In this document: positions 4,163 through 64,000 of the stretch, piece after piece
How positions within the stretch are numbered: the stretch's first letter is position 1
Layout: the number at the start of each line of letters is the position of its first letter
Program-made: the position numbers and the translations under genes
Notes under the pieces: generated by a model
Databases searched by the model: none
Told to the model about the DNA's origin: nothing
The model's input: only the letters and a program-made list of their open reading frames with translations
Assembly (NCBI RefSeq): GCF_965638725.1
Contig: NC_134975.1
Span: 1,190,179 to 1,254,178, forward strand
DNA from: Aptenodytes patagonicus
Taxonomy: Eukaryota; Chordata; Aves; Sphenisciformes; Spheniscidae
Direction of reading: 5' to 3'
DNA length: 64,000 nt

Positions 4163-4238
4163 CGCCAGCCCGGACCCCCTCCCGCGGGACCCTCCATCCA
4201 GCCCGAGCCCTGCGCGGCCCCCTGGGACCCCAGTCCCT

Positions 4239-8691: not shown

Positions 8692-8742
8692 GATGCTGAG
8701 GACGGGGAGGATGGGGTGATGCTGAGGGCTGGGAGGACGGGG
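8692..8742. repeat. 26-bp tandem duplication
   Basis: Two adjacent copies of a GATGCTGAGG...GGGAGGA..GGGG unit differ at a few positions. It is a minor local duplication without other context. Confidence 0.6.
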
Positions 8743-10140: not shown

Positions 10141-11180
10141 TTACCCAAAGGTAGAATGAGTTAAACGCTGGTATTTCCATTACACCGCCTATTTTGGCAT
10201 CGTTTCATGAAAATTAGCGGTAGGATCTAGTGCATTTGCACAGAAGAAACTCAAGAAGAAATGGCTGAACTCCTTGTATTACCGATGAGTGTATTTGCTG
10301 GCAGATGGTTGCAGAAGAAATCTTTTACATTTATCATCTCTTTGGCTTACCAGGACAAGATAACAAATCAGTGTTGAAAATACGATTCTGGGGAAAATTG
10401 CTCTAAATTACTGCACTCTAAGCATGTTGTTTTATTCTTTAATGTAGCTACTTTATGTATCTCTTTTCCTCAAACTATATATATTTCCTTTTTATTGGCT
10501 GAGGCTTTCCTAATTTATATTTTCATTACTTTGATTAATACTACTTCCACAGTGACATTATTATTCCAACGCAGTTTTGCAAGTGTCTTCCCGAAACACT
10601 TGGTGTTAAATAATCTTCGGATTTAGTCTGCATGATTTGTAATTTAATAAGCAGTTCCGCTTCTGCGTTTTATCTCCTAATTGGCACAGAATTAGCAGCT
10701 ATTCTGGAATTAACACAAGCTATCGTACGCTTTTTGTTGTTGAAAGGAAAACAGCTATAGGTATTATTTTAGCCGTAGTCGTGTAGCCGTAACTATAGCC
10801 GTATTAGCCATTTTAGGATCATCGATTGGATTGTAACTTGAGCAGGAATACGCTGCCATGGAAGCGGTGCTGCTCCTTTAGGAAGGAAGATTTCAGTCTC
10901 CCTGGCAGTTGCATTTGATACTCCTTTAATTATCATTTGGTGAGCGTGACGCATCTTGTTCTCCCGGTATTTCCATACCCAGTTTGCTTCTTCCAATTCT
11001 TCCTGAAACATGATTCCCAGATTGGCGTCTCTGAAGAGCTGTAAACACTTCAGATCTGAATCCAGCAAGGGCTTATCATCAGCCCTCCAGAAAACGATGG
11101 CTTTCACCTCCCTTCGCAGACAAAATATCTCTGAATCATGAACAATTAGCGTTACGGTTGGTCTAGAAGTGGCAGATTTC
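10141..11180. other. AT-rich island in GC-rich surroundings
   Basis: Base composition shifts sharply here: the segment is rich in TTTAT/ATTA words while both flanks are GC-rich. Read on the minus strand it has a long open frame at its upstream end (see 10793-11181), followed by AATAAA words that could be polyadenylation signals, for example in the stretch around 10430-10500. Three copies of TAGCCGTA occur at 10770, 10784 and 10796. The composition suggests an inserted segment or an old gene remnant, but no transposon ends or target duplications could be identified. Confidence 0.45.
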
Positions 11181-11181
11181 A
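10793..11181 (-). other. Unidentified open frame, possible exon or gene remnant
   Basis: The frame stays open for about 129 codons on the minus strand and has protein-like composition, mixed charged and hydrophobic, unlike the GC-rich artefact frames elsewhere. A stretch from about residue 27 reads AIVFWRADDKPLLDSDLK, and later ones ELEEANWVWKYRENK and TEIFLPKGAAPLPW. There is no ATG at its head (the first possible codon is GTG). Immediately upstream is a pyrimidine-rich tract ending CCCAAG, which would make a reasonable splice acceptor, so it may be an internal or terminal exon. AATAAA words follow downstream in the AT-rich island. I do not recognise the family. It may be a decayed gene, a transposon-derived frame or chance. 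Confidence 0.3.
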
Positions 11182-11369
11182 CTTGGGAAAAGCAAGATTA
11201 AATGAAGTCCTCGGCTGCATTGCGTTTTGCCGGCAGGCGGGCGCCGGGGCGATGCCGGGGAGGGCAAGCAGGGGTGCGCGGGCAGCAGTGGCCATCAGGT
11301 CTGCAGAGCTGCAAGGTGTGTGTCTGCCTGGCACAGAGGGCAAAGGGACATTTGCTGATCCAAGTCCAG

Positions 11370-11470
11370 CCCTAAACCCAACCCTAACCCTACCCCCTAG
11401 CCCTAGCCCTAGCCCTAAGCCTAAGCTTAAACCTAAGCCTAAGCCTAACCCTAAGCCTGACCCTAACCCA
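11370..11470 (+). repeat. Degenerate interstitial telomeric repeat
   Basis: About 17 hexamers of CCCTAA and its variants (CCTAAG, CCCTAG) run in one orientation for 101 bp. Several are perfect telomeric units and the rest are one or two substitutions away. The array lies inside unique sequence with genes on both sides, so it is interstitial and not a chromosome end. The divergence between units indicates age. Confidence 0.88.
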
Positions 11471-14400: not shown

Positions 14401-15660
14401 AAATCAATGTACATTACGTCCATGAGGCCACTTTATTCCACTTTCCAAAGCACCATTTACTCTTTCCCGGTATTTACCTGCGTCCATGTCCTGTTGTTTT
14501 CTGTGGAAACAGCTCGAGGTTTCCTGAACCCATCTCCCAGCCTGGAGACAGATCTACCCACTTGTGATCTCCAGATCCCCCCTGCAGCCTTTTAAAAGAC
14601 ACATTGACCATCTCTCAGATTGGTCTAAGTGATAGACCTGCTCCCCAAAACCTGCTCCCCTTATTATATCTCCCAAAATCCTTCTGGATGACTTTCTGCT
14701 GTGGCCTGATCTTCCCTAAATGATCTGTTTGAACCTTGATCATCTATAAAAACCAGACTTTCTTGTTTCTCACCTTGGAGAGGTTTTCTACCTGTAAAAA
14801 ATTATTCCACAAACTCTTTTTGTCTTTGGCACCAGCCCTTCGGGCAGGCTCAGCAGAGTTGGGATGACACTACAGAAGTCGTCTCCAAATTTCTGCTGGG
14901 TAATTGGTGGAAAGTAGGTGTGAGAAGAGTCTGGGCAGAGCGGACCGAGATGGAGCTGATTTTACCTGTTTTGACACAGAATAGCTGACTGGCATTTGCT
15001 GACGCTGCTTATCGCGCTTTCAGGTATGCGCACGCAGCATCTGAATTCCTGCGATGGCTGTAGGAGGTGTCAGGAAAGAGGGTTTTTTTTGCAGGTCTCA
15101 GGGCTTTTACGCTAAAAAAACCACTGACAACATGTCCCTCCCCCAGCCAAAGGCACCCAGGACAAGCAGCCATCCATCCCAAGGGCACCTGGCATTTTAT
15201 TAATGTCACCGAGTCTTTGAGGACTGTGCTCAGCCCCAGGATGCATCAGGCCGAGACGTGGCGTTGCTGAACCCAAACGAGCTGCAAGATTATCCGGGTT
15301 TTCACCAGTGACCGTGACCGATGCACGTTCAGCATCTCAGGCGTGAGGTGTGTGCGGAATAATGTCCCACGGCGCGGTCTGAGAAATGCCGTCTCTCCTC
15401 CAAGCCCTGCGGTGAGCTCCCCCGTGAATTTTCCGATTCTTCAGCCAAGAATGTGATAAGGCTTCACGGGTCGGTCACACTGCATAAACATTTTCTCCGC
15501 TCTCGGATCCCATGACCTGCTCTTGAACTGGTGGAGCTGAATCCTCAGCCACATCTCTCAGCCCCAGTGAATGCCAACCTTTACAGACATGCAGTGACCG
15601 TCCTCATCATCGCATCCTCCAAAAAAGGAAGACCCTCCACATCCTCCCCGCGTTCTCCGA
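11471..15660. other. Intergenic sequence between RAPGEF3 and SLC48A1 (right part)
   Basis: No gene, RNA or clear mobile element is recognised. A 21-bp unit (AGACACCRAATCACCAGGAC) is tandemly duplicated at 11742-11784, there is a short G run near 12181, and a GGGGTGGGGATGTCCC word is doubled at about 12780-12812. The rest is featureless to the eye. Confidence 0.5.
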
Positions 15661-16639: not shown

Positions 16640-17225
16640 TCTCCCAGTGTCCCCGTGTCCTCATGCCTCCTGTGTCCCCCCATGCCCCCCTGTGCCTCCA
16701 CAACCCCCCAAGCCTCCATGTCCCCCTGTGTCCCTCATGCCCCCCATGTCTCCCCACCCTCGTGTCCCCACACCCCCCGTGTCCCCACGGCCCCCCATGT
16801 CCCCACACCCCCATGCCCCCTTGTGTTCCCCACACTACCCCATGTCTCCACACCCCTCCATGTCCCCCCTGTGTCCCCCGTGTCCCCCTGTGTCCCCACC
16901 CCCCCATGCCTCCATGTCCCCTGCGTCCCCCTGTATTCCCCATGTCCCCCCGTGTCCCCACCCCCGTGTCCCCACTCCCCCATGCCTCCATGTCCCCTGT
17001 GTCCCCCATGACCCCTCGCGTTCCCCACACCCCATGCCTCCATGTCCCCTGTGTCCCCCATGTCCCCCCCCGTGTCCCCCATGTCCCCCCCCCGTGTCCC
17101 CACGCCCCCTCGTGTCCCCACTCCCTCCTGTCCACCTGTGTCCCCCACGCCCCCCGTGTCCCCATGCCCCCCCCCCCCCGTGTCCCTCACGTCCCCTCGT
17201 GTCCCCACCCCTGTATCCCCACGCT
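16640..17225. repeat. C-rich (minus-strand G-rich) minisatellite upstream of SLC48A1
   Basis: About 590 bp is built from short words of the type CCATGTCCCC, CCCCTGTGTCCCC and CCATGCCTCCATGTCCCC. A higher-order block (CCCATGCCTCCATGTCCCCTG) recurs near 16905, 16979 and 17031. The plus strand is almost free of G runs while the minus strand is G-rich, so the array could form G-quadruplexes or R-loops. It ends about 135 bp before the SLC48A1 start codon, at the edge of the CpG island. Long open frames through it on both strands are repeat artefacts. Confidence 0.92.
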
Positions 17226-17268
17226 CCCTCCCGCCTCCCCGCCCCGGGCCTCCCCCCGGTCCCCCCGG

Positions 17269-17360: not shown

Positions 17361-17499
17361 ATGGCGGTGAGCCGGGCGCTCGCCCTCCGCCTGGCCTACG
17401 CGGCGGCCGGCGCCCTCATGGGCTTCTCGGCCTTCTTCACCTGGAGCCTGGCGCCGGCCTTCCGGCAGCCCGCCACGGCGGCGGCGGGGGGGCTCTCGG
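17361..17499 (+). CDS. SLC48A1: SLC48A1 (HRG1 heme transporter), exon 1
   Basis: SLC48A1 moves heme out of the endolysosome or phagolysosome into the cytosol, for example during recycling of red-cell heme in macrophages. This exon encodes residues 1-46 plus one base of codon 47. The ATG at 17361 gives MAVSRALALRLAYAAAG, which aligns with human MAPSRLQLGLRAAYSG. First transmembrane segment: about residues 10-30 (LALRLAYAAAGALMGFSAFF). The conserved RQPATAAAGGLSG ending matches human RQPGTAAMGGLAG. The donor is GTACGAG at 17500. Joined to exons 2 and 3 it gives 147 residues against 146 in human, so the gene looks complete and intact. Confidence 0.95.
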
Positions 17500-20400
17500 G
17501 TACGAGGTGGCGGGGGGGAGGGCTGCGGGCGGGGGGGGGGAGGCCGGGGCGCCGCCGCCGCCTGAGGTAACTCCCGCAGCGGGGCCCACCGGTGGGTGCT
17601 GAGGGAGGGCGTGAGGGTGGTGGCGGGGCGAGGGCGAGGAGCGCCTTCCCTTGGGGGTGGCGGGCTGCGGGAGCGGGCGGCTTCGCCTCAGCGCTGCTGC
17701 GGGTGGTCCCAGGGGTGTGGGTGTGTGTGGGGGGGAATAGGGCGGGGGGCGAGCAGGACTGCCCCGGGAGCGCAGACCCCTCAGTAAGCACCCGGGAGGG
17801 TGGGTGAGCCCAGAGCCCACCCTGGGTCCCTGCCCGGGTGCGTGCTCTCACCTCGCCAAAAATCGCCAAGCGGCCTGAAAATGGAGGGAAGCAACAGTTT
17901 GTGCCTGGGCGGTGAGTGCGCGGGGATGGCGTCGACGCCAGGCCGACGGCGCCTGGCGGTTCCCTTCCCTCCACGCTTCGCGCGTTGGTTTTCTTTGAAT
18001 CTCGGTGGCGAAGCTGGCAAAACTGGGCTTGTGACGCGGGGGGAGAAGAGCTCTGTGCGGCGGCTAGCGTAGGTGAGAACGGTGTATGATTGTGGGACTT
18101 GGGCTGGCTGCGGTCCGTTTTGGGAAGTCTCCACGTGATGCTTTTGTGATCTGCCCAGGAACTCCTGACCTCCTGGAAGGACTTGTTGTGCTCTTCAGAG
18201 AGTGACTTTTAATAAAAACTGTTTGGGAGACTTTAGCTCACAGTGTCTGGCTGTACTTGCAACTTGAAATGCAAAACCGCGGCTTGTGGGACACATTAAC
18301 TGCATCTCTTGATGCTCATCCCTTAGGAAAAAGGAAATTAATCTGTGTATTTTATAACCTCGCTAGTGAAGACGGAATTGTTCTAGTCTTCACCTTGGTC
18401 CCAAGAAGGTTTTTGCAACGACATCTAGCAAACTTGCTGTTTGTGGTGGAATAGCTTTAGATAATGATGTTGTATAACTCGCAATGCTACGGAGCGAAAA
18501 CTTGTAAAAGTCTGAGGCTTAAATTGCATGTGGCCGTCAGAGCAAGCCCCATACGCTAGCCAGCGTTGTTACTGAAGAGGGGATTTTATTTCCAGGTTAC
18601 AGTTGAAAGCTTTGCTGACTTCCCTAGTAAATTTTTGGTCTGGCAACCTATACTTACATGTGCTCTGTGTTTTCAGGAAAGAAAAGAAAAGCGCCAGCCT
18701 CCTGATGTTTATACCTGCTGAAAGCACCTGTGCCAGACGCTCCGAAATAGGCGTTTGGGCTACTTGTCGTAGAGGCCAGAAGCTGTAAAATGCATCTTAA
18801 CGTCCACTGAAATCAGTGAGATTCAGGTGCCTACGTCAGTTATGGATCGTAGTTAATGATTGGGTTGGAGCAGAACGTAGTCCTCTCTTGGTTTGTCAGC
18901 TCAGCAGCTCATGAATAAGAGTAATCGCCCGGAGGAAGAGTAGAAAGTGAAGTTAAACTTTGTGAAGAATCTGGCTTGCTTCTGGTGTGTGAGCGACGCC
19001 AGCGCTCCCGTGGACCTCTCAGTATTTGCTGTGCTGGCAGAGCAGCTGCGAGGTGCGGGGTTGTGGTTGTCTCTCTGCTTCCTCTCCCTCCAAAAAGTTT
19101 TAATTCCAGCTGGAATGGGAATTAAGCAGAGCACTTCCAACACCTTGCTTTACTAGGTGGCACAAGGAAAGTTGGAGTGTTGTACCCCAGAAATGCAGAA
19201 GAAAATAACAAGTAATATTTTATGCTGCATGCATGTGCTGTCTTTGTGTTCAGAGAGGAACTTCAGAAGTCCACATTCTAAGAGGAGTCTGATGAGAAAG
19301 CAGAGAGGGGAACCATCCTGTACTTTCTGTGCTGAAGTTATGTAGATATTGTCTGCTGGGAGAAGGAGCTTTGCGTACTGGTTAATTACCAGGTAATTCA
19401 AGCTAGTTAAGATAACAAGGAGCAAGGTAAGCAAGAAACAAAATAAAAAAAAACCGGTCATTTGTTAGGTTGGACTCTATGAATTTGTGTGAATTTGCTC
19501 TCAAACATCTGTGAAATGCCCATGGGTAGAGTCGCAGCAGGATCAAAAAGCCTGAGAAACAGGTTGAAATATATGTTTTGGTGTTAGACAAAGTTGATTT
19601 AAGGGGTTCCTGTCATCTTAAATTCATGGCTGCTTTTTCCTGCCCTTCTGCTTCACTTTTCTACCGCCTCAGGGTCTCAATAGGTGAAATATGCTCCAGA
19701 CATTTGAGATGAGACTTTTCTTTTAGGCTCCCACCCCTGAACTGAGGATATGTACTGTGCTGTCTCACAAACATTGTTATCCCCACGACGGAGGGGCCAG
19801 GAAGGAGTGGGAATAAAACCACTCGTGTATGGGGAGGACCTTGTAAATTCGTTCTGCTGCCAGACAGATGTTGAAGTCAAGTTGTGCCCTCAGTTCATTG
19901 CTAGCCTTTACAAATGGACATTTCACGTTGGAGCCTGCATGGGTAGAGAGCTAAGTGGTTGCTTATTTAGTTGCGGAGGAGTAGCCAAAAAAAAAAAAAG
20001 CTGTGTTTTTTTTCCATGCATTGAAGCTAAGGCTACTTGCTGAGGTAAGACTGTTCTAAGAAAAAAAATCGTGGTGTGTAGGAGGTTTGCATTATGCTTA
20101 GGCACTGTGGATACTTCAGTTTCAGGTAAGCAGGGCATTCACTTGGTTTGTTTCTGGCATACTTCATTAAATCATCCCTTTTTTTACCGTAACGTGCTAA
20201 CTAGTACTTACTTCTAGTGGCAGAGAATGGCAGGAAAGGAAGTGGGCGAGCTTCTGAAATTTTCCGCCATGTAGACATTGCAAAGTTAATTGTCAGGCAT
20301 TGTTTTGTGCCCTTTAGTCTGCTAAGAAACCTGTTGCAACTTTCTGCGTGTTGTACAGGATGACATAACGCAGAAAGGCGGCTTCTCCCCCAAAACGTGT

Positions 20401-26400: not shown

Positions 26401-28179
26401 TAGGGCGACTCTCGGCTGTGCTCATCTATCGGTTTTGACGCAGTTGTTTTCCTCTGTGCTATAATACCTTCTTTTAAGCCTTGGGAAGCTTCGTGTTTAA
26501 TCACCGTATCCAGTAACAAATGAGCTCTGGCAAGACTTGTGGCTGTCCTTAGTATTAAAATGTTTATCTTGTAGCGGGCAAGGCTGGGTTTTGCTTCCTT
26601 TGATGTTGAGAAGTAGCTGCAGAGGGAGGTCTGTGTTATTGCAGGATATCATATAAAGCAGCCTGGTATTTTATCAGTGGTGTAATTTTTTTTTTTTAAT
26701 TATTTTTTTTTTTTCCCCTGCTGCCCTTAAAATAAAATCTGGAAAGGAGGTGGCAGTGAAGAAGAAATACAAGCCGGTTAGTTGCACCACTGGAGGTTCA
26801 AATTTCAGAAGTGCCGCAGAGGTCTTTGCCAAAATGAGTCAAATGTTTTAAGTCTGTAAAGTGGCGCTAACTATAGGTTGAGTTAGCGGCTTAAGGAGAT
26901 TTAGTCATACTCTTCAGCGCTGCGACTTAAACAGAGGAACAGCTTGCTGTAATTGAAGCTGGTGGTGTTGCTTGTAGTTGGGATTGTATAATGGGGAATG
27001 ACAGGCAGCCTTGTTCTGGCGGGCTGTAAAAACTTTGACAGGCTTTAAGCAGGTGAACGGACAGTTCTTCTGTTGAGTGTCTCTTGTAATTTTTTTTCTG
27101 AAGTGTGGTGAAAAGATAGCAGTTTTTAGAACAAGATTAGGGAAGGATGCATTGTTTTTCCCTATATCAGAAACTGTTCACAGCTGTTATTTGGATGCTT
27201 TAATCCCTTTTTTTTCCCCTCCTGTTTCCTCCCTTTTGACAAAGGAGTTGAAACTTGGTTATGGACTAGTCACCTAAGCCTAGGGAAATGCCTTCTGCAT
27301 TCCTATTAAAGCCATAGTGAATTTGGCTGTTCTTAAAAAAAAAATATATATATAAAAACTGTACGTGCTCAGATGTTTGTCTGGTTGTGTAATCCAGACG
27401 TTTTGGGCCAGACCCAAAAGTACAGAGTTAGATTTAGGCAACCTTAAACACTTAGCGACCGTGCTTTGCCATAAGTGGGAATTGTATGTATGAATCATCT
27501 GGGAGCTGAACTTCTACACCCCTTTACTTGAAACATTTGAAGTGTTTGGAGGGGATTTGTATAAATGGGCTCTTTATGAAGTTAACTAGAGATGCGTTGG
27601 AGCTAAAAGACACGATGTGAAACGCTGAGTACTGAACAGGTCCTGCGTATCTTGATTTAGGTGTCTAAAATCAGTGGTTACGTAGTGGTGCTCTTCATCA
27701 TTGTCTCCATATGTAAAAGGGGCTGCCTGGCCTCTGTGAAAAGGTGCATTAATTCTTGCCAAGTGCTTGGCTTGCTATGTGTAATGTCCTGAAAGCTGTA
27801 TGGAGAATAAATAAAACTGCGCTGAGTATGCATTAAATGGGTCTATCCAAAACAGGAAACCAAACAAGTTGTTCGGGGGAACCCATTCGACGAATGAAGT
27901 CCTTTCTGTGCCAGCCTGTAATCAAGATCTGTGTCTCAAAGCCTGTGCAAAAGCAGGGGGTCTGGGGTGGTCGTGGGGGGTGGTCGTGGGGAGCGGTGCT
28001 TGCACGGGCAGCCGTTTATTCTGGTGTTTCCTCTCTCTTTGCGGGGGACGTGGCCATGAAGCGTTCGTGTTCCCTGGCGTTCTGTATGGGGTTTTTGCTG
28101 AGATGTATATTTATTAGACGCCTTTCTGTGTTGCAGTGTGATGCATGGTACTGATTCCCCTTGCTGTCTAATTGAGCAG
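17500..28179 (+). other. SLC48A1: SLC48A1 intron 1
   Basis: The intron is 10.7 kb, with donor GTACGAG and acceptor TTGAGCAG. It is AT-richer than the intergenic flanks and has T and A homopolymers (near 19987, 21655, 26690). It holds no recognised exon or transposon. A 216-codon plus-strand open frame at 24675-25325 has no family resemblance and is treated as chance. A MARE/GATA motif pair at 25540-25559 is listed separately. Confidence 0.85.
25540..25559 (+). promoter_or_regulatory. SLC48A1: NF-E2/BACH1-type MARE next to a GATA motif, in SLC48A1 intron 1
   Basis: TGACTCAGCA at 25540-25549 is a perfect NF-E2/NRF2/BACH1 half-extended MARE. An AGATAA GATA motif follows at 25554-25559, four bases on. 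Heme-responsive and erythroid genes commonly use this pairing, and BACH1 is released by heme. Placement inside a heme-transporter gene makes it a plausible enhancer, but function is inferred. Confidence 0.4.
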
Positions 28180-28347
28180 GTGTTCTGGCGCTCTGGGCCC
28201 TAATCACGCATGTGATGTATGTGCAGGATTACTGGAGGACCTGGTTAAAAGGGCTGAGGTTCTTCCTCTTCATCGGGATCCTCTTCTCAGCTCTCTCAGT
28301 GGTGGGATTCTGCACATTCCTCGTTCTGGCCATCACCAAGCACCAGT
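28180..28347 (+). CDS. SLC48A1: SLC48A1, exon 2
   Basis: The exon encodes the end of codon 47 to the first base of codon 103. The acceptor AG is at 28178-28179 and the donor GTAAGT begins at 28348. The peptide [20 protein letters not shown] is nearly identical to human VLALWVLVTHVMYMQDYWRT. His57 corresponds to human His56, one of the residues implicated in heme transport in the family. The exon supplies transmembrane segment 2 (about 43-63), the conserved cytosolic link [10 protein letters not shown], and segment 3 (about 75-97, [20 protein letters not shown]). The phase is preserved: the frame runs from exon 1 through to exon 3 without a stop. Confidence 0.96.
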
Positions 28348-30262
28348 GTAAGTACTTTGTTGCAGTAGGCGACTGGGAGAAATGACTAGCGATGCTGGGA
28401 TTACTGGGATTGGATTTGAGGGAACAGAAGAGCCTGCAAAGCAGGGCTGGGGTGTGAATCTGGGGGTGCTCCTGCCATCTCTTCTGAGAGGTGTTGAGAG
28501 GCTTTTAGGGAGGGGCTGCAAGAATGCCATTGCATTTCATTTTTCTGCTGTGGTATCTTGATGACACAAGAGTAATTCTGCTGCCCGATGAGTGCTGCTC
28601 CCTTAGGGCATCTTCTAATATTTGATAGCTGCCTTGATACGCCTGGTCTATAGGACTGCTGGTAGGCAGTCCACGTTTTCCAACATTTTTTCCTATAGGA
28701 ACTGGAATTTACTTATTTCTATGACAAATAAAGGGAGTGCTCTTAAACGTCGTCTCTTCAGCACTCATAAAGCAGGTGGGTGAGGATATTGGAATCCCAA
28801 CGCGAGTCAGCAGGGTGAAAATGCCTTCTACACTTAGTCAGCATATAAAGCTGTGTTGCTATAAAATATTTAACATTGTCTAAGGAGGGTTCACGTAATT
28901 ACTCCCAGTATTTGCTTGGCAATAGACCAAAGAGAGAGTTTGGGCTTTGTTTTTTCAGAAGTTGCCTGTGTTTGTTGCTTGCTGCATTTGGGCAGATAGC
29001 CACTAAGAGTCCTGTTGTTATTGTATTCATGGTGGTGGGCAAGCTGTGTCGGGGTCATAACCCACCAAAAGCCCTTGGTTTAGCCTAAATACACTCCCCG
29101 TGGAGATTTGAGTGCTTCAGCCTGGTGGAAGGGTATGAAAATACTCGTAGGCAGTCGTTAGAAATACAAATGTAAAAAGAAAACCAAATATTTTTTCATC
29201 GCCTCCTTTCTTGGAGACATGAGGAAAAACTGTTCTGGGGAAAATTTGGGGTTTTTTAGGGAAATGGAGATATTTTAGGGAAAGCCCTAATTTGGGGGGA
29301 AAGTAGAACATCTGCATAGGTTATTTATGTATGGAAGGTTTAGGACCGGTACATTTAATGAGTGGGGATCTTTATTTTTTAATAATGACCAGGCAGCTTG
29401 TACTTAGAGGTGGAATTGTTTTACGCATTAGGTTATGTATGAAGTGTATTTCAAAATTGTTGACATCTCTAGAACAAAAAAAAACCCGAAACGCTGAAAA
29501 TAAATATGAAGACCGCTGACGCGCACTCAAAAAGCAGAACCATACCCACTTGACTTCAAAGTAATCCCTAAGCAGAGGCAGTTTTATAATAGATAAAGAA
29601 GAAACGCGTTCATTTGCAAAGATTCTCTAAAAAGAGGCTGTTCATGTCATTCACTGACGTGTGATTATCACAGCACTGTATTGAAGACCTGCAGTACAGG
29701 TTGAAGTGCACCAGTATTATATATTAAATGTCGGTCACAATGGTTGGTAAAAGCATTTTTAGAAGGAGAATATATTTTATCTCCTGTTTTCCCCCGAGAT
29801 GTGCAGATTTCCTCTCTCCCTGCCACGGTGGGGCAGAAGGGAGTAGTAGTAAGCCAGGGTGAGCGAAATTAAGAACTGCAGGTTGAGGTGGTTTTCTTGA
29901 GCCACATGTTTCTGCCATCCAGGAATTCACACAAACTCCATCCGTTGGGCCCTGAGCAAGGAGAGTTTGGGGTGGTTGAGTGGGTGACCTTGGAGCTCTT
30001 AGGATCTGCCTCTCAAGAGATAACAACCTTCTTCAGCCTGTGACCAGAATACTCTCCTGTGGCAAGAGATGAGGAAATTTTACAATCTGAATCAAGAGGG
30101 CTGGGAATAAGGCACTGATTAAGCCTTACTCACAGAACGAGCTCTTTAGATACAGGCTGAAAAGCTCCCAGGAACTGGGGGGCTGAGTTGGGTTCTTCCT
30201 GGCCAGACTGCAAGAGGGATAAATGGGATTTTTAAATGTATCTGTATCCTTTTCTCTCCTAG
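28348..30262 (+). other. SLC48A1: SLC48A1 intron 2
   Basis: The intron is 1.9 kb with donor GTAAGTAC and acceptor TTTTCTCTCCTAG, both near consensus. It is AT-rich and nothing else is recognised within it. Confidence 0.92.
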
Positions 30263-30399
30263 CCCTGACTGATCCCAGAAGCTACTACCTGTCGTGCGTC
30301 TGGAGTTTCATCTCCTTGAAATGGGCCTTCCTCCTCAGTTTGTACGCTTACCGGTACAGGAATGAGTTTGCAGACATCAGTATCCTCAGTGACTTCTAA
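30263..30399 (+). CDS. SLC48A1: SLC48A1, exon 3 (terminal coding exon)
   Basis: The exon completes codon 103 and ends with TAA at 30397-30399. It encodes [20 protein letters not shown], then transmembrane segment 4 (about residues 110-130) and the cytosolic tail [14 protein letters not shown]. The human tail is [14 protein letters not shown], so the last ten residues are identical. Together the three exons total 444 bases. The product is a four-pass membrane protein with both ends expected on the cytosolic side. No frameshift or premature stop is present. Confidence 0.96.
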
Positions 30400-51631: not shown

Positions 51632-52888
51632 CTTCAGGCTGTAGGGAGCGGGTCAGAGGTTCAGGAGAAGACTGCAGTACAACAGTACAGGTTATTCAGG
51701 ATGAAGATAATACTGACAAGATGAGAATATTAATTTGTTATATGCAGCAAGACAAAAAAAAAAAAAAAGGTTGTTGTCTTTTAAAGGACTTTCTCCTGCA
51801 GCCTCCTGGTCGTGCTCAGCCTGAGTTGCCGCATCCCCATCACCGCCAGTCTGGGGGTAGGTGGGAATCCCGCTACGGCACGGTGCAGGCTCATCAGCGT
51901 AGGAGAACTCTGTACTACGTTATATATTTCTGTTAGTAAAATATATTATATATGGAAACTTGTTGTGTGTTATAAAAAGGAGCTAATTTTAAAAATACCT
52001 ATACAGATACAGGCATGCCAACTCAACCATTTATGTTTTATTGATATTATTTTAATTACTTTGATGAATCACTGACGCTGTTTTAAACTATATTGTTCCC
52101 ATAATACCCCTTTGTGCTCTCATTATCAGACAGAGCAGCAAAGCAAGATTTCAGCAAGGGTTATGGAGCTCTGCTGGGGGTAGACTCCAATATCCCCAAG
52201 AAACGTCGTGCCAGGACTTCAGTGTCCCCCCAAAGAGACTCAGGGTGAGAGCTCCCGATGACCAGGAGCAGGGAGCAATGCCGGGAGAGCGTGATGAGCA
52301 GAGACAGCTTGGACGGGGTCAACAGGCACTGGAGAAGAAACACCTTGGAGAGGCAGAGAGGGCACAGGCAGGAGACGGGAAGGTTATAGGGGTTCCCAAA
52401 GGTGTAGGACTTTTTTGGGAGCGGGTGGCTGGGCATAGGAGGATGGTGGGTCACCAGTGGCCTCCAGTTTCATGTGTTGATTCTACTGGTGTGATAACAG
52501 AGGGTTGAAAACTATTCAATGTAAGGAGGGACCTGGGCAGAATATTTTATGCCTTGGTGGGCTGAATCCGGACCTCCAACCTTGGCTAAAAGAGGATGCA
52601 ACGCTCCCAGCATTTCTGCAGGGAGGAGAAAGAGGGTTTATTTGTAGGCAAGCTCAGGAGCGGAGTAAGGAAGCAATACTGCTTATAGTGCTTGATTTCC
52701 TGGGGAAATCAGGGGCAGAACTGGCTGTGGATCCAGCCAGGAACTGGACCTGGACCTGTTCCACCCTCTCTATCTGCAATAGCAGCCATATTTATTTGAA
52801 AAGACTTTTGATGGTGGAGGAGTATTGGCTTCCATCTGTATAATAAAGGCTATCGTAGCCTGCCAGAAACGTAGACAGAGGAAGGGAG

Positions 52889-52943
52889 ATGGATGGATGG
52901 ATGGATGGATGGATGGATGGATGGATGGATGGATGGATGGATG
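52889..52943. repeat. (ATGG)n microsatellite, about 13.7 copies
   Basis: A perfect ATGG tetranucleotide array of 55 bp, with degenerate GGATGA-type copies continuing to about 52980. The purity of the array suggests it is recent and likely polymorphic. It lies about 750 bp upstream of the Twist start codon. Confidence 0.95.
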
Positions 52944-53200
52944 ACTGAGTGGATGAGCGGGTGGATGGATGAACGGATGCAAACTCAAGTTCATTTTGTA
53001 TTATGCCATTTCTCGAGAGCAGTATGGATGCCTATCACTGTTGCTTCTTCCTTTGGACTCAGAGAATACCCTGTATTGCTCATTGAAACATCCATTGCTC
53101 CACATTTCCACTTGAATCTCTCATAGATAAAAGTCTCCTATTCCAAACTGGGCAAGTGAATATTTCTGGCTGGCTTTTGCAGGGTCAACTGGGCTTAAAA

Positions 53201-53692: not shown

Positions 53693-54178
53693 ATGAAAGA
53701 GGAAAGCATGTGCCCGGACTCCCCCGAAGGCAGCCTGGTCACCAGCGAGGAGGAAGGCGAGCGGCTGCACAAGAAATGCCTCCGCAAGCGTGGCCAGGGG
53801 GGCAAGCCGGCAGAGGACTGCGGTGCTCCCTCACCGCAGGGCAAGCGGAGCAAGCGCAGCCCCGTCCCGCAGTCCTTTGAGGACGTGCACACGCAGCGCG
53901 TGATCGCCAACGTGCGTGAACGCCAGCGGACCCAGTCGCTCAACGACGCCTTCGCGGAGCTGCGGAAGATCATCCCGACGCTGCCCTCCGACAAGCTGAG
54001 CAAGATCCAAACCCTCAAGCTGGCCGCCCGCTACATAGACTTCTTGTACCAGGTCCTGCAGAGCGATGAGCTGGACCACAAGATCACCAGCTGCAACTAC
54101 CTGGCCCACGAGAGGCTCAGCTACGCCTTCTCCGTCTGGAGGATGGAAGGGGCTTGGTCCATGTCTGCATCCCACTGA
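53693..54178 (+). CDS. TWIST3: Twist-family bHLH transcription factor, probable TWIST3
   Basis: Twist proteins are nuclear bHLH factors that pair with E proteins and bind E-boxes to control mesenchyme, cranial and limb development. The single-exon frame of 161 residues starts at ATG 53693 and stops at TGA 54176. Layout: acidic N-terminus ([10 protein letters not shown]), two basic nuclear-localisation-type clusters (KKCLRKR at 27-33, GKRSKR at 50-55), bHLH about 68-121 (basic region [14 protein letters not shown], loop PTLPSDK, helix 2 [20 protein letters not shown]), and the C-terminal Twist box [20 protein letters not shown] ending in His161. It lacks the glycine-rich tract of TWIST1. It differs from TWIST1/2 at NDAFAEL (NEAFAAL there) and [16 protein letters not shown] (DEMDNKMTSCSYVAHE there). 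Family assignment is firm. TWIST3 rather than TWIST2 rests on these differences and on neighbouring SLC48A1/RAPGEF3. Confidence 0.93.
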
Positions 54179-54860
54179 GCCGGGGTATGTATCGCCACCT
54201 CCCCGCCGACACCTCCGCACATCCCTCGTTCCTGCATCCTCCATGCATCTCCCCAGCTCGGTCCTGCGGGGGAAACGCACAGCAGCCGCCCCCTCCTCAC
54301 GCTCCACGTGCAAGCGATTTGCTTTAACAAACCCCAGAAGCTGCCAAGGCTGGCGGTCGGAGGAGGTGGTGATTCCCAACCTCGCCGGGGCCGGTAGGAC
54401 GTTGCAGGGAGCCGAGCAGCGGAGCCCTAAAGCAACTGATCTCATTTAGCGGGGTCTGGTCCGGGGCAGGCTAGTGAAAGGTTTAAAACGAGGGCTTAAA
54501 AAATCTGATTTATCCTCCCACGGTAACCCAGGAGGGCGCGTAAATCAGCAGACACCCTCCTGAATGTGCTTGGGTTACCGAGGTGTCAAAACTGCACGAG
54601 CAAGACCAGCGGCCGCCCCGCAGCCATCGGCCGACGGCTGCTGTTGCTCCCACTGCGCGAAGAGCCCAGCCTTGTCCTCGCCGCCCGGGCAAAACCTGGC
54701 AGCCGTTTCCTGAAGCCGTTGGGTGGCCCTGGGGCCTCCAGCCTGCCGGGCTTTCTCCTACCCCTCTCCTAAAGCGCTGAAGATAAGACGGGATCCGTAA
54801 TCCCTTCGGATCTGTAGGCATCCTACACTGCAGGGAATAAAATATCGAGTGAGGATGCTG
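54179..54860 (+). other. TWIST3: Predicted Twist 3' UTR with an intron
   Basis: Twist genes carry one intron in the 3' UTR. Seven bases after the stop codon a GTATGT donor (54185-54190) follows CGGG, so exon 1 may end at 54184. The acceptor of exon 2 could not be fixed. A canonical AATAAA at 54836-54841 is the first strong polyadenylation signal and would end the transcript near 54860. A second AATAAA lies at 55812-55817. Confidence 0.4.
54836..54841 (+). terminator. TWIST3: Candidate polyadenylation signal of the Twist gene
   Basis: AATAAA lies 658 bases after the stop codon, followed within 30 bases by GTGAGGATGCTGGGG, a GT-rich stretch. Distance and strand fit, but transcript data are lacking. 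Confidence 0.4.
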
Positions 54861-57800
54861 GGGCAGCGAGGTTTGCCCACTCGTTGCACCGCACCTCTTG
54901 TTTGATGTGCTCAGCACCATCCAGCCACCGCCTGAGCATCCTTTCAATCACTGGCAAAGCTGCTGAGAGGAGAGGGGAATAATCCTGTTTTCAGTGCTTT
55001 AGGTCTCATTGGGCTGGGAGAAAGGGGGAACGGGGGGAGAAGGCTCAGCTACGTGCTAACGTTTCCTGCAGCTCATGAGCAGGAGCAGAAAGCTCCGGAG
55101 GACATTCCCAAGCCATGGACTTTGGGGACACTTCATGGGAGCCCAGCCCAGCTCCCGAGAGTCCCCTTTGTCCCCTAAACAGGATCAGGGCTTCTGACTT
55201 TCCTCGAGCACTGACTCATTAACCCCTGTCTTGTGTCGGCCCCGGCGCTGGGGGTTAGAGACCGCCGGGCCCTCTGGGGAAGCCAACTGCAAAAGGACTC
55301 TTATTTTTCCTGCACCCACCACTAAGGGCTGCAACGTGGAAAACCCTTTTATTCTGATTTTCTGCCAGCTATTGGGGTCAGCCTTGTGCAACCTCCTTAC
55401 GTGCCATTTCTCCTCCTGGCTGGTCTTACTGAAGCCCCAGTTCAGTGCAGGGACCCACGTGCCCAGCCGTGGTCTCCCTGCGGGCAGAAGCAGCATATCT
55501 ATAACGTGAGACAATCCAGACCCTGTGACGAGAAGTGCCGAGCGGGTGCAAGACCCTAATTAAAGCCGTGCTGACCCCCAGCTGGGGCAGGGAGCTGGTG
55601 CGATGCTGCAGCCCGATGTGAGACCGCCGGTGCCCGCCTCGTCATGGGTGCAGCCTGGTGAGGACGACGGGCTCCCCGGTGCCTTCGCCTTTAGGGTATG
55701 TCTGGGGGAAGCCACAGTGCAAAAAAAAAGTAATCCGCTCTCCACCCTGGTCTTGCGTTCCGAAAGGCCGGAGGGAGTGGGAAAGGGAGGAAAGCGGCCT
55801 TTCTGAGACAAAATAAATCATAGCAAATTCCTGCAAAGTGGCCCAAATGATGCCCGGGCGGTCAGGAACCTTCTGCCACGGCCGGTGTCCCCCCCCATGA
55901 GCACCGCTGACCCTCCTGCCTTTGGGTTTTGCCACGTAACAGCCCTGAATTTCAGGCCAGATCAGCAGATATAGGTGCAGCCACTGGCTAAAGATGTTGA
56001 CCGGCTCCCAGGGGGATTTCATTTAAGGGTGTGCCACATTTAAACTCTCGTTTTCCTGCAAACCTTGCTAAGATCGCTTCTAACCAACAGAAAAACTGCC
56101 AGTTTTCTAAATCCGTGTATAGATTTCAATTATTTGGGGCAGACCTGGTTGTTTAAAAACTGATGAGAAAGACTGTCCTTGCTGGAAGCAGGATAGCTGC
56201 CCCTTAGCCGTGGCTGGGTGCCGCCGGGGACACCTTCCCCTTCGGGACAGCCAGAAGCGAAGCGTGTGGTTACTTGTTCTTACTTTGAGAAGCCAAAAAG
56301 CTGCCAGGGACTGTCTGGATGCTGAGCCCCCTGAGCAGATCAAGCCCGTATCCCGCCCAGCGCCTCCCTCACCCTCTTCCGGGCATCACATTTTTGCAGC
56401 CCTGTGAGTTTTGCAGTTTGCAGCGGGGTTATCCTCTTTCGGAGGATGCGGGGTGCTCCGTGCATGCTCCCAAAAGACGGGGGCTGCCCGTCGCGGCTTT
56501 GCCCTGCTCCTAGGTTCTCAAGAGAGGTGGAATCAGCAGGAGCGTGGGTTTCTTTGGTGGATGGTTTTTCAGAGCTTCAGCACTGTGCTGACGAAGCCCG
56601 CGCTGACGAGCTGCGCGCTTTGTTAAAGCCCAGCTAAAGGCGTTTTCGCTCTGGGGAGGCGTGGGGTTTTTGAGTCCCCTCGCCATCGCCCCCAGACCCG
56701 GGGCCGTTGCTCTCGGCACACGCGTGTCTGCTCCCTGTTGCGTGTGTGGGCTGACGTGCAGCTCTGCGTCCGGTCATTGACTTGTAGACCTGTTTATTTA
56801 AGCTGAGTGCTTGGCAGGAATTGTGCTCCCATGATAAACAGAGGAATTAAAGACACTTAGTGATCTTAAAGACGTCTCTGCTAAATGACAAAGCCTCCGT
56901 GTAAAACCCCTCATGTCCTGTGAGCGTGGTACTCTCAGTGTGCTTATCATTGCTGGTTAATATTCATCCCAAGCGGCTCCGGTGCTTGCCTTGAGGCGAA
57001 GCATCCTTCAGCTGAATAGATAATAATCTGCTTTGTGCCGACCTGCAGCGGTATTCGGGTACCAATTAGCAACTCCCAGCTGGGCAGGGAAGTAACGGGA
57101 GGAGGATTTGCTAAGCAAAGACCAAAAAGAGGGAACAGCCACAGGGGAAGCGATGCTGGCGTTGGAAAGGCTGCGTCTCTTTCCTGTAAGTGAATTAACC
57201 CAGCACTTGCAATGGGACTGTAATTTTATAATGTAAAGCAGCTAATGGCTGCTGCGCGCCCCGGCATACTGGTCTCCACTGGAACTCAGCCTATTAAATA
57301 TCAAAGGGCGCTGGAATAGCTGGATGTGGATATGCCCTTGTTAACCAGGAGACATCATCCGGGGAAAGAGGGATTGAGCCCTCAGGCAAGAAAAATAATG
57401 TTTGAAGTCCCCCAAGCTCACGGTTTTTCAGCACAGTCTTGAGCACATTAAAATGGTTTCTTTTCCTGCTGGAGGAGAAAATGAGGCTGGAAGCTGAAAC
57501 TGCTGGGGGGGAAAGACTGGTGGAGTTGTAAGGGGTGATATTTCTTGCCCTTCATTTGTCTCCCTGGATTTATTGTCTTTCTCGCGTTGCCCTCACTTAA
57601 TTGTCTATCCTGAAAGACCTTGGATAAATCTTCCCTTTGGGGACTGTTGCTCTTGCTTGGAGTCTGCTTTGTTGGGTGGATGTTTCATTTTCTTTTATTT
57701 ATAAATATGTCTCATTGCACAGTATTAAAGCACCAGGGTATTAAAGGAGCTTGGGGAGAGCTCTCTTCCCTATTCAGATCTGCTCAGAAAATGCATTTAA

Positions 57801-60800
57801 AGCAGCATCTGCTTCAAAAAGCTGAGATCCCTCTGCAGCCTGGCAAGAAAGCACAATCCCCGCTGGCTGAGCTGTCTTGCCACCCTGGATCAGTCCTTTA
57901 AAAGCAGCGAGAAGTGGGTCCATTCACCCACTGCTGGTTAAACTGGCCAAGGTGGCCCAGGAGCCCCGGGCTGGGTTAGAGCAAGCCCAGGCGCTGGGCT
58001 CCTCCTTAGCCAGGTCCAGCGTGCGAGGAGTCGCGCTGGCAGGAACCACCTCGCTTTCACTTTTGGTTTGAGCTCCCAGAAGAGACGAAGAGTTCCCCAA
58101 ATCCTGGCAAATCTGTGCCTGGGTGATTTTTTTCCTCCTTCCATTCGGTGAAGGGCTATGTTAAGCACCAGCCGTGCTCTGTGCTCCTATCCACGCGCTC
58201 TGGCAGGATGCTTCTGGGGTTTGCTCCTTGCTCTGGCGTGGAGCGGGTTTAGAGGTCAGAATTTTCCCCCAAAGGCTGCTGTCTTCTCCCACGAGCGCAG
58301 AGCTGGGGGTAGAAGAGATGTTTGGTGCCTTGAAGGCTCCAGCTTTGGTGCCCCGAGGCAGGAGGAGCTGCCCTAGATGAGGGATGTGGGACATCCCCCA
58401 AAATCCCAGGGCTGATCTCACGCGTTGGCTCTGGGTAAGGATGCAGGACCAGATGGGGCTGGGGATGCTCAGTCTGACCACAACCAGCCCACACCGTGCC
58501 GGGGCTGTCGGGGGACGCCCCGACTGCTGTGTAGCAGCAAGGGATGGCATCACCTTGATGTCCCGGAGCTGCTCTGCTGCAGTTCCTGGAGCCCAGCCCG
58601 GAGCAGGGAGAGCTGCAGGCTGTCCGGCCATCCCTCTCCAGGTCCCTTGGCATGAGAGCATCCAGCACAAGGACATGTCAAAGGGCGGCTGGGGCTGCCA
58701 TTAATTTCACTGTTAGAAAAGCCTTTTTCCAGCAAAAACTTCCACTTTTCTATTAAAGATGGAAGAACTCAACACCAAACCTGCCTGGGGGGGGCCGGGC
58801 TCTTCTCCATCGCAGGAAGGCAGGTTCTCAGCACTACTCAGGATTAGTTAAAATTAAAACAGAGATAAAATTACAGAGCCAGCCCTCACGAGCATTAAAA
58901 TGTCTGCCGGTTTACGATCCCCGCGAGGAGATGGGCTCGCTAGATCTCAGCTGCGTTCGCTTAGCCCAGAGGAATGCCTTTGAAACGAGCCTGTATTTCA
59001 TTGCCGAATGTCACGGGAATGCACCTGGGATCTGAGGGGGAACGAAGGAGATGCGTTAACGAGACGGGCTTTGCATTTAATTTCCTTTTATAGGGCTGTA
59101 CCTGAGCAGAGACGAGGGTGCTAATGCAGTGGAGGGAGGGAAGGACAGTCGTCAGCCGGGGCGTTGAGGACAGGCTCGCAGAGCGATGTGTCTCCCTGGC
59201 TCTGTGGTCTGGTCCATGCCAGCCCCGTGAACGTCCGTCCCCAAGCCCTGCACGCTCAGAGCAGGGCTGGTCTCCTCTGGAGGGTCCCGCAGTCCTTCGG
59301 CAGCCTTCAAAATCGTGCCGTGAATGCGTTATTTGGCGTTAGACCTTGTTGGCTTGAGACATGGCTGTGCCGCGAGGCAAGCGGAGATTATTAACGTTTA
59401 TATGGGCTGGGTTGAGATGCTCGTGCCTGTGCTTCCCACAACCCAGGACATCCCTGTGCCGTGCCGGTTGGACGCCAGCCTTTTTGGCTGCCTATTGTGC
59501 CAGGCACCGTTGCCCTTGAGCGCCGTGGATGCGCACAGCGCCCATCACAGACCTTTCGGACCACGGTCCCAAAGGGACAGCAATGGGACACATGGGGCTT
59601 TGGGGATTTTTTCTCTCTCTGCCACCTGGCTCGGGCAGGCTCTGTCCTGTCTGCAAGCCCCGAGGGCAGCCCTGCCTGCAGAGAGGGTGGGCAGGGGCTG
59701 CCCCCAGCAGCCTGCTGGCCCCCGTCTGCATTATCTCAGCTGGTGCCCAGGGGTGAATTACTGGAGGGTTTGATTTATTCCTCTCCAGGCTCCTCTCCAG
59801 AGAGTTAAAGGTCTCAGCTATTGTGCAAGGAGGGACTAGAAAAGCAGGAGGCAAAGGGCGGAGGGGATGAAATAAAACCAGAGACCTAGGGGCGATGGGG
59901 AGGAAGCCCAGAGAGCACCAGGGCCAGCAAAATGAAGCCATTGCCCCACGGGGCTTGAGTCCCCTTGCACCCCCATGCCCGGGCCCTCAAGACCTGCTGG
60001 AGCCATTCCTAATCTCCTCCAGCCCTTGCAGGAGACGTTTCCCCCTGCCCAAGGTCCAGATCAGGCTGCCGGCTCGGCTTGCCCTGCTTTTGCTCTCGGT
60101 TCACCCACACCGCGGCCCCTGGCTCCAGGCTGGCGTCCGGCGTCGGCTGGAGGCGCCCGGCAGCTCCGCGGGGTCCCCTCCAATGTCACCCACCCTGGGA
60201 ACAGCCTGTCATCTTCCGGGCTGGAGAGGGAACAGTTCATCACGGGATAACGCCGGTCCTCCTCACGGAGGGGAGGGAAGGGGAGATGAGCGGTTCGGCT
60301 GCTTTCCTTCTCCATCCTCCCAGAGAAGCATATGTGGGGTAAAAGCTGTGATTTTTTTTTTTTGGAACGCTCACGGTCCTGGGCTCAGGTGCGGGGGCAT
60401 TTCCCAGCGCGTCCCATGCAAACGCTTGTGGCTATGGGAAAGTCTGCGAATGTGAAGCACGAAGGCTCAGGAGCCAGCAACCGAACGCGGCTCTTCCCCC
60501 CGCTGGCTTCCCAGCCAAGCGCCGGATTTTGCATGATTTTGGGAAGCCTGGGCTGGCCGTGCCGAGCCAAAACCTCGGTGACTTGGCAGCCAGGCTGACC
60601 CTGCCTGTCTCCCCTTAGGTCTTACGCCTCCGCCTCGATGGAAACAAGCAGCAGCTCGCCAGCACCCGGGCACCCAGACCCAGCCACCCCACTCTCCTCC
60701 ACCACCCGAAAAACGACAGCAGCCTCCCCAGCGAGCAGGAGAGGACGTGCCCTGTCCCGCCCCACCAGCCCCCTCACCCGGGGCTGCTCTGACCCCCTCC

Positions 60801-61900
60801 AAACCCCAGGGCTGGGGCAGAGGGACCTGAACCAGGACCCAGGTGGTTTTGCTTGGAACGAGCTTGGTTGGATGCTGCGTATGCAACTCTTTAGGGTGTA
60901 ATTTATTTTTGACTCGCAGGTAAGAAATAGTCGAGTTACCTACTCCAGTACTAGCCGCCTGCTTCCCGAGCCTGCAGGGAAGCCGATGTCCCCGGCTCAG
61001 CGGCATCTGTCCTCCCCGCATCCCCCCACCGCCTGCAGCCAGCCTGGGCAGCCCCGCAGCCAGGACGTGCAGGCAGCTGCCTTCTGCCAGGACCAGGCAG
61101 GACAACAACTCCACTCGGGATGATGGGAAGGGCTCGAGCTGTCCCTCGCTGGTCTGGTCCTCACTGCTTTCCCCCCCCCAGGGACGTGAAAATGCAGCGA
61201 CCGAGGGTTTGACCAAGGACCGAGCAGGGAGCCCAGCACGGCTCCACTTTTATCCTGCTCTGGAGGTCTGCACCGTAATGACACCACGGTCTGTACCGCT
61301 GCCTGGCATGCCGAGCGGATTTTGGGGGGGCTGCTGAACCCCTCAACGAACCCCGAGGCTCGCCACGCCCTCCGCTCACTCGTACCCCGTGGACGTGTCT
61401 CAAAATCCCCCGCTCTGTTGGAACAACCCAATTTCTTTGAAATTATCGGAAAACAAGGCTGGAGACGTTGCGCACAGCCCTTCCCTCTTCCCCGCAAGAG
61501 TGGGAGAGTTTGGGGACATCTCGGGAGCGGTGCTGCTCTGGGGGGGGGATTCAGGCTCTTTTGGGGGGATGCAGAGATGCTGGGGGGGGTGTGTGTGTGA
61601 CAAAGGGGTGTCGGGGTTTCCGGACGATCCCAATAAAGTCCAGGGGGAATTTTCCAGGGTTCAATCTTCCTGGTTCCTAAGGAAATGGTGCTGTCGTAAG
61701 CACGAGGCGGCACGGCCGCATGCCCACCCCTGCACCCTCCATCAGCGCTGGTGCTCCGCCAGCTTTATTTAAATTGGGCAAAAGAGAATCAGGTATTTTT
61801 GCTCGTTGTAGCAGAGAAAGGGGGAAAAAAAGTCCCCGTAAGTGAGGCTGCAACGAGCGTGCAACCCAAAATAATCCATGTGGGAGAGAGGTGTTACGAA
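54861..61900. other. Intergenic sequence downstream of the Twist gene
   Basis: No gene or transposon is recognised. A block at about 56770-57400 is AT-richer than its surroundings and dense in homeodomain-type (TTAATTA/AATTA-like) and Fox-like (TGTTTATTTA) words, which suggests a regulatory element. Long minus-strand frames near 60.5-61.7 kb are in GC-rich sequence and have no known relatives. Confidence 0.45.
56770..57400. promoter_or_regulatory. Candidate enhancer block downstream of the Twist gene
   Basis: The block contains TGTTTATTTA (Fox-like) near 56789, several AATTA/TTAAT words (near 56844, 56957, 57064, 57190) and TATCATTG and GATAATAATC near 56945 and 57020. The low GC content and lack of coding signal in otherwise GC-rich DNA are typical of conserved developmental enhancers. 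Conservation itself cannot be judged from one sequence. Confidence 0.25.
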
Positions 61901-62360
61901 TGACTCAACAGCAGAGTTTCAATTAGTGATCACACTTTATTACACGCCAGAGAATCCAACGAGAAGCGACAGCAAGGCTCAGACTACCTTTTTCTATATA
62001 ATCCTCAATTTTTATGTACACTGTGAGTGGATTCCCTGCTCCGGGGAGCTGACCACAGCCTTTAAAAAGATCTGAATGTGCTTAAAAAAATAAAAATTCC
62101 ATTAAAAATAGGGTTGTGGATGGCTCCGTTAACTGCATCAGAGGAAGTACTTTACACATGAAAAATGAAACCACCTTTAGAAATATAAACTTTCTTTCAA
62201 AAAAATAAAATGTGCTTTAAAAATAAAGGGGAAATACCTCTTTGTGAAGCAGAGACTCAGGCTTCCAACCCTAATTTTTTAAAAATAGGGTAAAGTATCT
62301 TTTAAAAAATTATTTTAAAAGTAACATTTTGTTGAGCCTTTTAAAAAAAAAATCCTTATA
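61901..62360. other. AT-rich block, possible minus-strand 3' UTR
   Basis: About 450 bp is full of TTTTAAAAA-type words. On the minus strand AATAAA occurs at 61936-61941 and again at 61763-61768. If a minus-strand gene such as HDAC7 ends here, this would be its 3' UTR, but no coding exon of that gene could be recognised upstream within the window. Confidence 0.25.
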
Positions 62361-64000
62361 TTGACTTGTTTTAAAATGAGCAAAACATCAGCCCTAAGGA
62401 AAGAACAGTCATTTGAACCAAGGTCTTGGGGTTTTTCAGTGCTCGCAGTCACGACCCTGGCGGTTGTCACCAAAGACACAGAAAGTTTGGGGGGGGAAAA
62501 GGTGTTTGTTTGGGGCAAGGAGGGGCGGACCTGGAGATGTTCCGGCCCTTTGCATCGTCACGAGCCTTGGAGGAAAACCCCCAACAAACCCTGTCCCCGA
62601 GGGGTGGCCGCCCCGGCACGGCGCCGGCCGTCCCACAGCACCCCCTGCGCAGGCAGCCACGATGCCGCATGGCTTTTCTTGCCACGCCAACAAACCATCC
62701 CGCCAGCTGGGAAGTGCGAGGGACTTTTGTGGGACCCGGTGCCCGTTTTGGAGGTCCCGTTCGCCGCTTGCAATGGGATGGAGCGCGCTCATCTGGGATG
62801 CATGGGCGCGGCAACAGGGATGGCTGCAGAGGGGAACTCCTCCCTGGAGCTAAAGGAGATGTCCGCCGTCGGCTTCACGGTGGGACTCCTCTGCCTGATG
62901 TTCAGCTGTTAAAAATCAGGCAGACGGGAGCTCGGCGAGGTCCCTCCCTCCATCCTAACCGAGAAGCGGTGGGAGCACCCAGGCAGTGACGCACCCACCC
63001 AGACCTGGGCTTCAGCATCACCATGGCAGGACCTCCACCCATGGGACCCCCACCACCACCTCCTCCAGCCTCCACGCTCAGCGGACACCACTGAAAGGGG
63101 TGTTTAGGGGGGGGACCTGGGGATGAGGAGGTGCCACCCCACAGGGAGGGGGGGCCCTTCCAAGCAAGCATGTAAGTCTGCTAGAAAAAAAAAAAAATAA
63201 TGTACTTGCACGAACGCCCGCGCTTCGCCGCCACGTTATTTGGCCCCGTCTTCGGGGTTGAAACCACAAGCGACGGGTTGGCAGATGGGGCCGGCGTTTC
63301 CCGTGAGCCGTTTGGCGTATCGGCCGGGGTGACACAACAGGGGAGCGAATGCAGAGGGGCTGCTCGGGGTTTCGGCTCCAGTTTGGGGTGACCTACCACG
63401 TAGGGTGCAAAGGATGAATCACTTCTTGGCCACCCACCCCAGTCCAGGCTGGGTGAGGCTCATGAAGGTCTTGCTGGGTGCTCCTAGCCAGACCTGCCAG
63501 GCTGGAGGCTGGGAAGGGCCAGCCCTTGAATTCATGAGCTTAATTAATCACAGCTTTTTTTCCTTTGGTGTCTTGCCCTGATAGACCCAGAGGAAACCTG
63601 AAAACGTTAAATACTAAAGAAGGTAAGAAGTGAGGAAAGAGGCCACCTGCTTGGGGCATGTCCCTCTGTAACAGCTTCCACAGCTGAGCTCACGCAGTCG
63701 CAACCACAGCTTTCTCCTGGAGGAAACTGGGGCACCAACTCTCCCTCGATGTTGAGCTTTGGGCTTCCTCGGAGGCGAGGAGCGGCCGTGGGCCACGTCG
63801 CATCAGGTCTCCTCCTGCATGGCACAAGCCCAGCTGGGACACACTGGGAGAAACGGGAGCGAGGTTGGGACTGAGCAGGGAAGGGAAACTGAGACCGACG
63901 GAGGGAAAGGTGGTGGCACCGGAGGAGCCACGACATGGGGGCTGTGGGGTGCCCAGCTCAGCCGAGGGGATGGAGCAGTGTGGGGGGGGGGCAGTGGTTG
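62361..64000. other. Unassigned sequence at the right edge
   Basis: No recognised exon. A minus-strand frame of 38 codons at 62789-62905 follows a good pyrimidine tract and acceptor (CTGATTTTTAACAG) and is discussed among the findings. The remaining frames are GC-rich artefacts. Confidence 0.4.

Follow-up and report, generated by a model that had tools for sequence, protein, structure and literature searches.

Three ancestral vertebrate Twist genes were recognised in PMC4996418, citing Gitelman 2007, and zebrafish twist3 was reported to represent a clade missing from mammals (PMC3210159), against which another study names the same gene as a homologue/orthologue of mammalian Twist2 (PMC7176127). 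In chicken, HDAC7, TWIST3, SLC48A1 and NEUROD4 are listed within a 0.51-Mb stretch of LGE22 (PMC4592986), and TWIST3 appears in transcriptome gene lists (PMC8461557, PMC13061413). In zebrafish, hdac4 adjoins twist2, an arrangement shared with human, while twist3 has an hdac7a-related pseudogene as its neighbour (PMC3426487). Axolotl Twist3 was described as responding in limb regeneration (PMC6362101), and a list of genes targeted by ancestral conserved noncoding elements includes teleost twist3 (PMC11034925). The TWIST3 gene, its name, its neighbours and its absence from mammals are already known in print from chicken, axolotl and zebrafish; in the literature searched, with subscription journals mostly outside it, we found no single paper stating all three Twist/HDAC pairs together.

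In Aptenodytes patagonicus we identified a Twist gene beside HDAC7 and SLC48A1, the place occupied by the TWIST3 orthology group. We are highly confident that it is TWIST3, a third vertebrate Twist paralogue, still in its ancestral position, with SLC48A1 on one side and HDAC7 on the other, and most likely working like TWIST1 and TWIST2. This explanation draws on an intact open reading frame, conserved domains, constraint on the coding sequence, and gene order and orientation at three loci.

Gene order around the Twist gene

The window is the whole stretch of 64,000 nucleotides that was analysed (C27:1190179-1254178), and the genome searched comprises 1.35 Gb in 618 contigs. The following features were recognised, in window coordinates:

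3543-3659, minus strand: first detected coding exon of RAPGEF3 (tblastn with human RAPGEF3, E 0.007, weak alone)
17421-17501, 28176-28349 and 30262-30396, plus strand: coding exons of SLC48A1 (tblastn with a human SLC48A1 query)
53693..54178, plus strand: TWIST3 coding sequence, 161 residues, a single coding exon from ATG to TGA
53897..54046, plus strand: bHLH domain, residues 69-118 (Pfam PF00010, E 6.3e-18; 8osb_B, E 9.6e-33)
54116..54175, plus strand: C-terminal motif, residues 142-161, which we take to be the Twist box / WR motif (pairwise alignments)
54185..54190, plus strand: donor-like GTATGT, shortly 3' of the TWIST3 stop
61936..64000, minus strand: possible distal 3'UTR of HDAC7, with AATAAA at 61936-61941

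An earlier sequence-only reading of this DNA had named RAPGEF3 and SLC48A1 as neighbours, and both were indeed found to the left of the Twist gene, with human proteins as queries. SLC48A1 is on the plus strand, and its three exons match with 56% identity over 27 residues (17421-17501, E 2e-4, weak alone), 79% over 58 residues (28176-28349) and 87% over 45 residues (30262-30396). RAPGEF3, on the minus strand, lies mainly in the left flank, where tblastn places its remaining exons as ordered matches within C27:1180179-1190178 (E 1.5e-170). Since most of the gene is located there, it was recovered inside the window neither by Pfam in nine frames nor by PDB comparison in one of the six frames of positions 1-15000; a RAPGEF3 motif scan of the window gave chance matches only, and a further tblastn match at 199-321 (E 0.23) was also taken as chance. 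A NEUROD-type gene, presumably NEUROD4, is present on the same contig, 91 kb to the left. Neither the Rfam scan nor the tRNA scan gave a match in the window. We also observed a telomere-like interstitial array of about 16 CCCTAA-like copies (80% matches) at 11370-11469, between RAPGEF3 and SLC48A1, and a long C-rich minisatellite with CCCCATGTCCCC-type units at 16651-17245, just upstream of the first SLC48A1 exon.

The same reading predicted a minus-strand HDAC7 on the right flank. We examined 30 kb beyond the window end, in 10-kb pieces, and found the gene in the first of these, where the Pfam Hist_deacetyl profile is matched in all three minus-strand frames, with the profile segments ordered 5' to 3', and where the PDB sequence of HDAC7 (3c0y) scores above the best HDAC4 entry in each frame (202 vs 178, 158 vs 142 and 140 vs 108 bits). 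The last coding exon, read by eye at right-flank positions 2087-2224, ends in EPMEEEEPMNQ, which we take to be a class IIa C-terminus; by this reading the HDAC7 stop lies about 2.1 kb to the right of the window end and about 12 kb (11.9 kb) past the Twist stop. TWIST3 and HDAC7 are tail to tail, and the gene order is RAPGEF3(-) SLC48A1(+) Twist(+) HDAC7(-). The interval 61936..64000 is a putative distal 3'UTR of HDAC7, possible in view of its AATAAA; another minus-strand signal is located nearer to HDAC7, at right-flank position 503. An AT-rich stretch at 61936-62400, on the minus strand around the AATAAA, resembles the end of a distal 3'UTR.

The locus agrees with those described in other vertebrates. 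Chicken TWIST3 shares the name and the company of HDAC7, SLC48A1 and NEUROD4, a likeness taken from a gene list without strands in the excerpt of PMC4592986. Zebrafish twist3 likewise adjoins an hdac7a-related sequence, but this neighbour is described as a pseudogene in the excerpt of PMC3426487, whereas here HDAC7 has catalytic-domain exons.

Coding sequence, domains and constraint

The open frame read from the window spans exactly 53693..54178. Its Pfam HLH match covers residues 69-118, and the TWIST1 bHLH domain (8osb_B, aligned to residues 60-126) is the top of 18 PDB sequence matches, the second-best being TAL1 (E 6.6e-14), so that the bHLH recognised by Pfam is closest to Twist in the PDB sequence comparison. 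The final 20 residues are identical (20/20) to those of its two paralogues in this genome, TWIST1 and TWIST2. Membership of the Twist family, as claimed from the sequence alone, is borne out by the intact 161-residue frame, its HLH domain, its best match and this C-terminal identity.

Over the aligned length, 119 of 159 residues are identical to TWIST2 of the same genome and 118 of 159 to TWIST1. In the last 102 codons there are 45 silent codon differences and 14 amino-acid changes relative to TWIST2, and 28 silent differences and 12 amino-acid changes relative to TWIST1; the NG86 dN/dS against TWIST1 is 0.07/0.70, and dS against TWIST2, at 3.1, is saturated. Silent changes exceeding replacements indicates that TWIST3 is a real coding gene that has been under constraint since its split from the paralogues, as judged from codon comparison. 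A chance open reading frame is ruled out by the HLH domain, the TWIST1 bHLH match and the pattern of codon changes.

The two paralogues in the genome resemble TWIST3 in their bHLH, Twist box, single-exon frame and tail-to-tail arrangement with a class IIa HDAC gene. They differ from it in locus, in 41 (TWIST1) and 40 (TWIST2) of 159 residues, and in branch length, that of TWIST3 being longer; the TWIST3 N-terminus is without the SSSPVSP motif (as given in the excerpt of PMC4996418) and without the glycine runs of TWIST1. The same N-terminus contains the basic stretches RKR and KRSKR, which are likely to act as nuclear localisation signals. At its start the window protein reads MKEESMCP and zebrafish twist3, from a start-site oligo as printed in PMC3210159, reads MREEQTCG, so that the two have a common M-[RK]-E-E-x-x-C over the eight residues that this oligo allows to be compared; twist2 begins with MEESSSS.

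Twist genes usually have an intron in the 3'UTR. The donor-like GTATGT at 54185..54190 is a possible start of such an intron, and donor-like sequences also follow the stops of TWIST2 (GTAGGT) and TWIST1 (GTAAGG) in this genome. On the other side of the gene there is a GATG microsatellite (52888-52979), which precedes the Twist start codon by about 0.7 kb.

The alignment shows no change against TWIST1 and TWIST2 in the Twist box or in the core of the basic region, and for this reason we consider it most likely that TWIST3 forms dimers, binds to E-boxes and recruits its partners in the same way as its paralogues. By its conserved domain, the protein would dimerise through the bHLH, with E-proteins or with itself, and the dimer would bind E-boxes; the Twist box would serve partner binding, and TWIST3 would regulate genes of mesenchymal cells. 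We infer this dimerisation, DNA binding, choice of targets and the expression of the gene, as well as its duplication history, from the observations at the three loci and in the protein.

Twist and class IIa HDAC genes elsewhere in the genome

A genome search with the window protein returned 32 matches, three of them Twist genes, after which the next match falls to 49% over 84 residues. Besides TWIST3, these are C6:32830706-32831185, on the minus strand, with an open reading frame that reads as TWIST2, and C2:137691118-137691504, on the plus strand, with one that reads as TWIST1. A search with one HDAC7 exon gave four matches, three of them class IIa (100, 88 and 78%, the fourth being 44%), and placed the two class IIa genes besides HDAC7 itself at C6:32725553 (plus strand, 88%) and C2:137832690 (minus strand, 78%). 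The Pfam genome search (21 matches) detected class IIa HDAC exons at the same three places. Only best candidates are scored in such searches, and the counts of Twist and class IIa HDAC genes are lower bounds. We call the C6 gene HDAC4-like and the C2 gene HDAC9-like, on the basis of the exon sequences, the PDB HDAC4 sequence and the human HDAC9 sequence.

The three Twist genes found and the three class IIa HDAC genes found form three tail-to-tail pairs:

C27:1243871, plus strand, and 1258601, minus strand: TWIST3 and HDAC7
C6:32830706, minus strand, and 32725553, plus strand: TWIST2 and the HDAC4-like gene
C2:137691118, plus strand, and 137832690, minus strand: TWIST1 and the HDAC9-like gene

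Measured from the stop codon of the Twist gene, the closest HDAC exon detected by Pfam is 13.5 kb away at TWIST3, about 94 kb at TWIST2 and about 105 kb at TWIST1. The tail-to-tail pairing of TWIST1 with HDAC9 and of TWIST2 with HDAC4, brought forward in the earlier reading, is seen here with the HDAC9-like gene on C2 and the HDAC4-like gene on C6. Its further proposal, that TWIST3 and HDAC7 form a Twist/class IIa HDAC pair made by whole-genome duplication, is strengthened because every Twist gene found is paired in this way. A tail-to-tail pair of Twist and class IIa HDAC genes would already have existed when the genome duplications of early vertebrates took place, and the duplicated copies would have become TWIST1/HDAC9, TWIST2/HDAC4 and TWIST3/HDAC7. 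For a fourth class IIa gene, HDAC5-like, no exon was observed among the best candidates scored in the HDAC7-exon and Pfam genome searches, which may be due to a gap in the assembly or to how far the search reaches. The 2-kb flanks of TWIST3 showed no noncoding similarity to the flanking sequence retrieved for TWIST1 and TWIST2 (compared on the same strand, at E 0.1), and window positions 54180-62500, compared with the genome, matched only themselves; for the parts covered, this weighs against the TWIST3 explanation.

Upstream of two of the Twist genes we noticed further bHLH open reading frames, to which we assign the names Fer/PTF1A and FERD3L as our own assumption. One, of Fer/PTF1A type, lies about 36 kb upstream of TWIST2, near C6:32867630 on the minus strand, in the orientation of TWIST2; the other, of FERD3L type, lies about 19 kb upstream of TWIST1 on C2 and mirrors the first. 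Together they suggest an ancestral Fer-Twist-HDAC block, and this three-gene block is supported because the Fer-type bHLH upstream of TWIST2 matches the FERD3L-type one upstream of TWIST1. Near TWIST3, no Fer-type bHLH was found by tblastn in the window and seven 10-kb flanking loci: of three matches with E values no higher than 1, a pair fell on the Twist bHLH itself, and the third (E 0.93) was taken as chance. A fuller scenario, to which we give somewhat under an even chance, is that a Fer-Twist-class IIa HDAC block predated the vertebrate duplications and that the HDAC genes stayed beside Twist as carriers of Twist enhancers; at the compact TWIST3/HDAC7 locus Twist would have become dispensable, and it would have been lost in mammals.

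Orthology and rival explanations

The tree was built from 11 rows and 170 columns, comprising the window protein, TWIST1 and TWIST2 from the same genome and from human, and six other bHLH proteins or fragments of the same genome, with fish and amphibian Twist3 outside the sample. In the best tree the window protein falls outside the bird and human TWIST2 pair (82/73), which it joins at 88/95, unstarred, and it does not group with TWIST1, whose own pair is without support (43/0). Holding the window protein with both TWIST1 rows costs 0.9 log units (p-AU 0.109), and holding TWIST1 with TWIST2 also costs 0.9 (p-AU 0.11). No alternative is rejected by the AU test at 0.05, and the tree supports no single order of the three Twist clades. 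Of the tree placement sought by the earlier reading, the position outside the TWIST2 pair and apart from TWIST1 was recovered, but not at a strength that excludes the alternatives (p-AU 0.061-0.11). A separate TWIST3 fits this tree but is not proved by it, and since the tree favours no one order of the clades, it is the gene order that carries the case for TWIST3.

These results bear on the possibility that TWIST1 or TWIST2 was duplicated within a particular lineage and that the gene is the resulting copy, which came by chance to lie beside HDAC7. The near identity of the bHLH and Twist box to those of TWIST1 and TWIST2 would fit such an origin, and the AU test leaves standing the joining of the window protein with TWIST1 of its own genome (5.2 log units, p-AU 0.061) or with its TWIST2 (3.5 log units, p-AU 0.076). 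Nevertheless, the end branches of bird and human TWIST1 and TWIST2 are 0.02-0.04, against 0.57 for the window protein, the silent sites of the gene are heavily changed and its N-terminus is without SSSPVSP (the motif of PMC4996418). Moreover, its position and tail-to-tail orientation match those of the other two pairs, and TWIST3 is also found with HDAC7 in chicken and zebrafish, as far as the excerpts of PMC4592986 and PMC3426487 describe these loci; we regard a chance duplicate as very improbable. That the gene is a decaying TWIST3, its function lost, is scarcely credible: a branch longer than those of TWIST1 and TWIST2 would fit relaxed constraint, and the clade is reported in the excerpt of PMC3210159 as missing from mammals, but the frame is open from ATG to stop, the domains are intact, the Twist box is unchanged and chicken transcriptome lists name TWIST3 (excerpts of PMC8461557 and PMC13061413).

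TWIST3 as found here is no new kind of gene; its pairing with HDAC7, already described in chicken and zebrafish, persists intact in another genome. The three Twist/class IIa HDAC pairs provide a clean case for tracing the blocks of whole-genome duplication, and the TWIST3/HDAC7 locus helps to ask why mammals could lose TWIST3.
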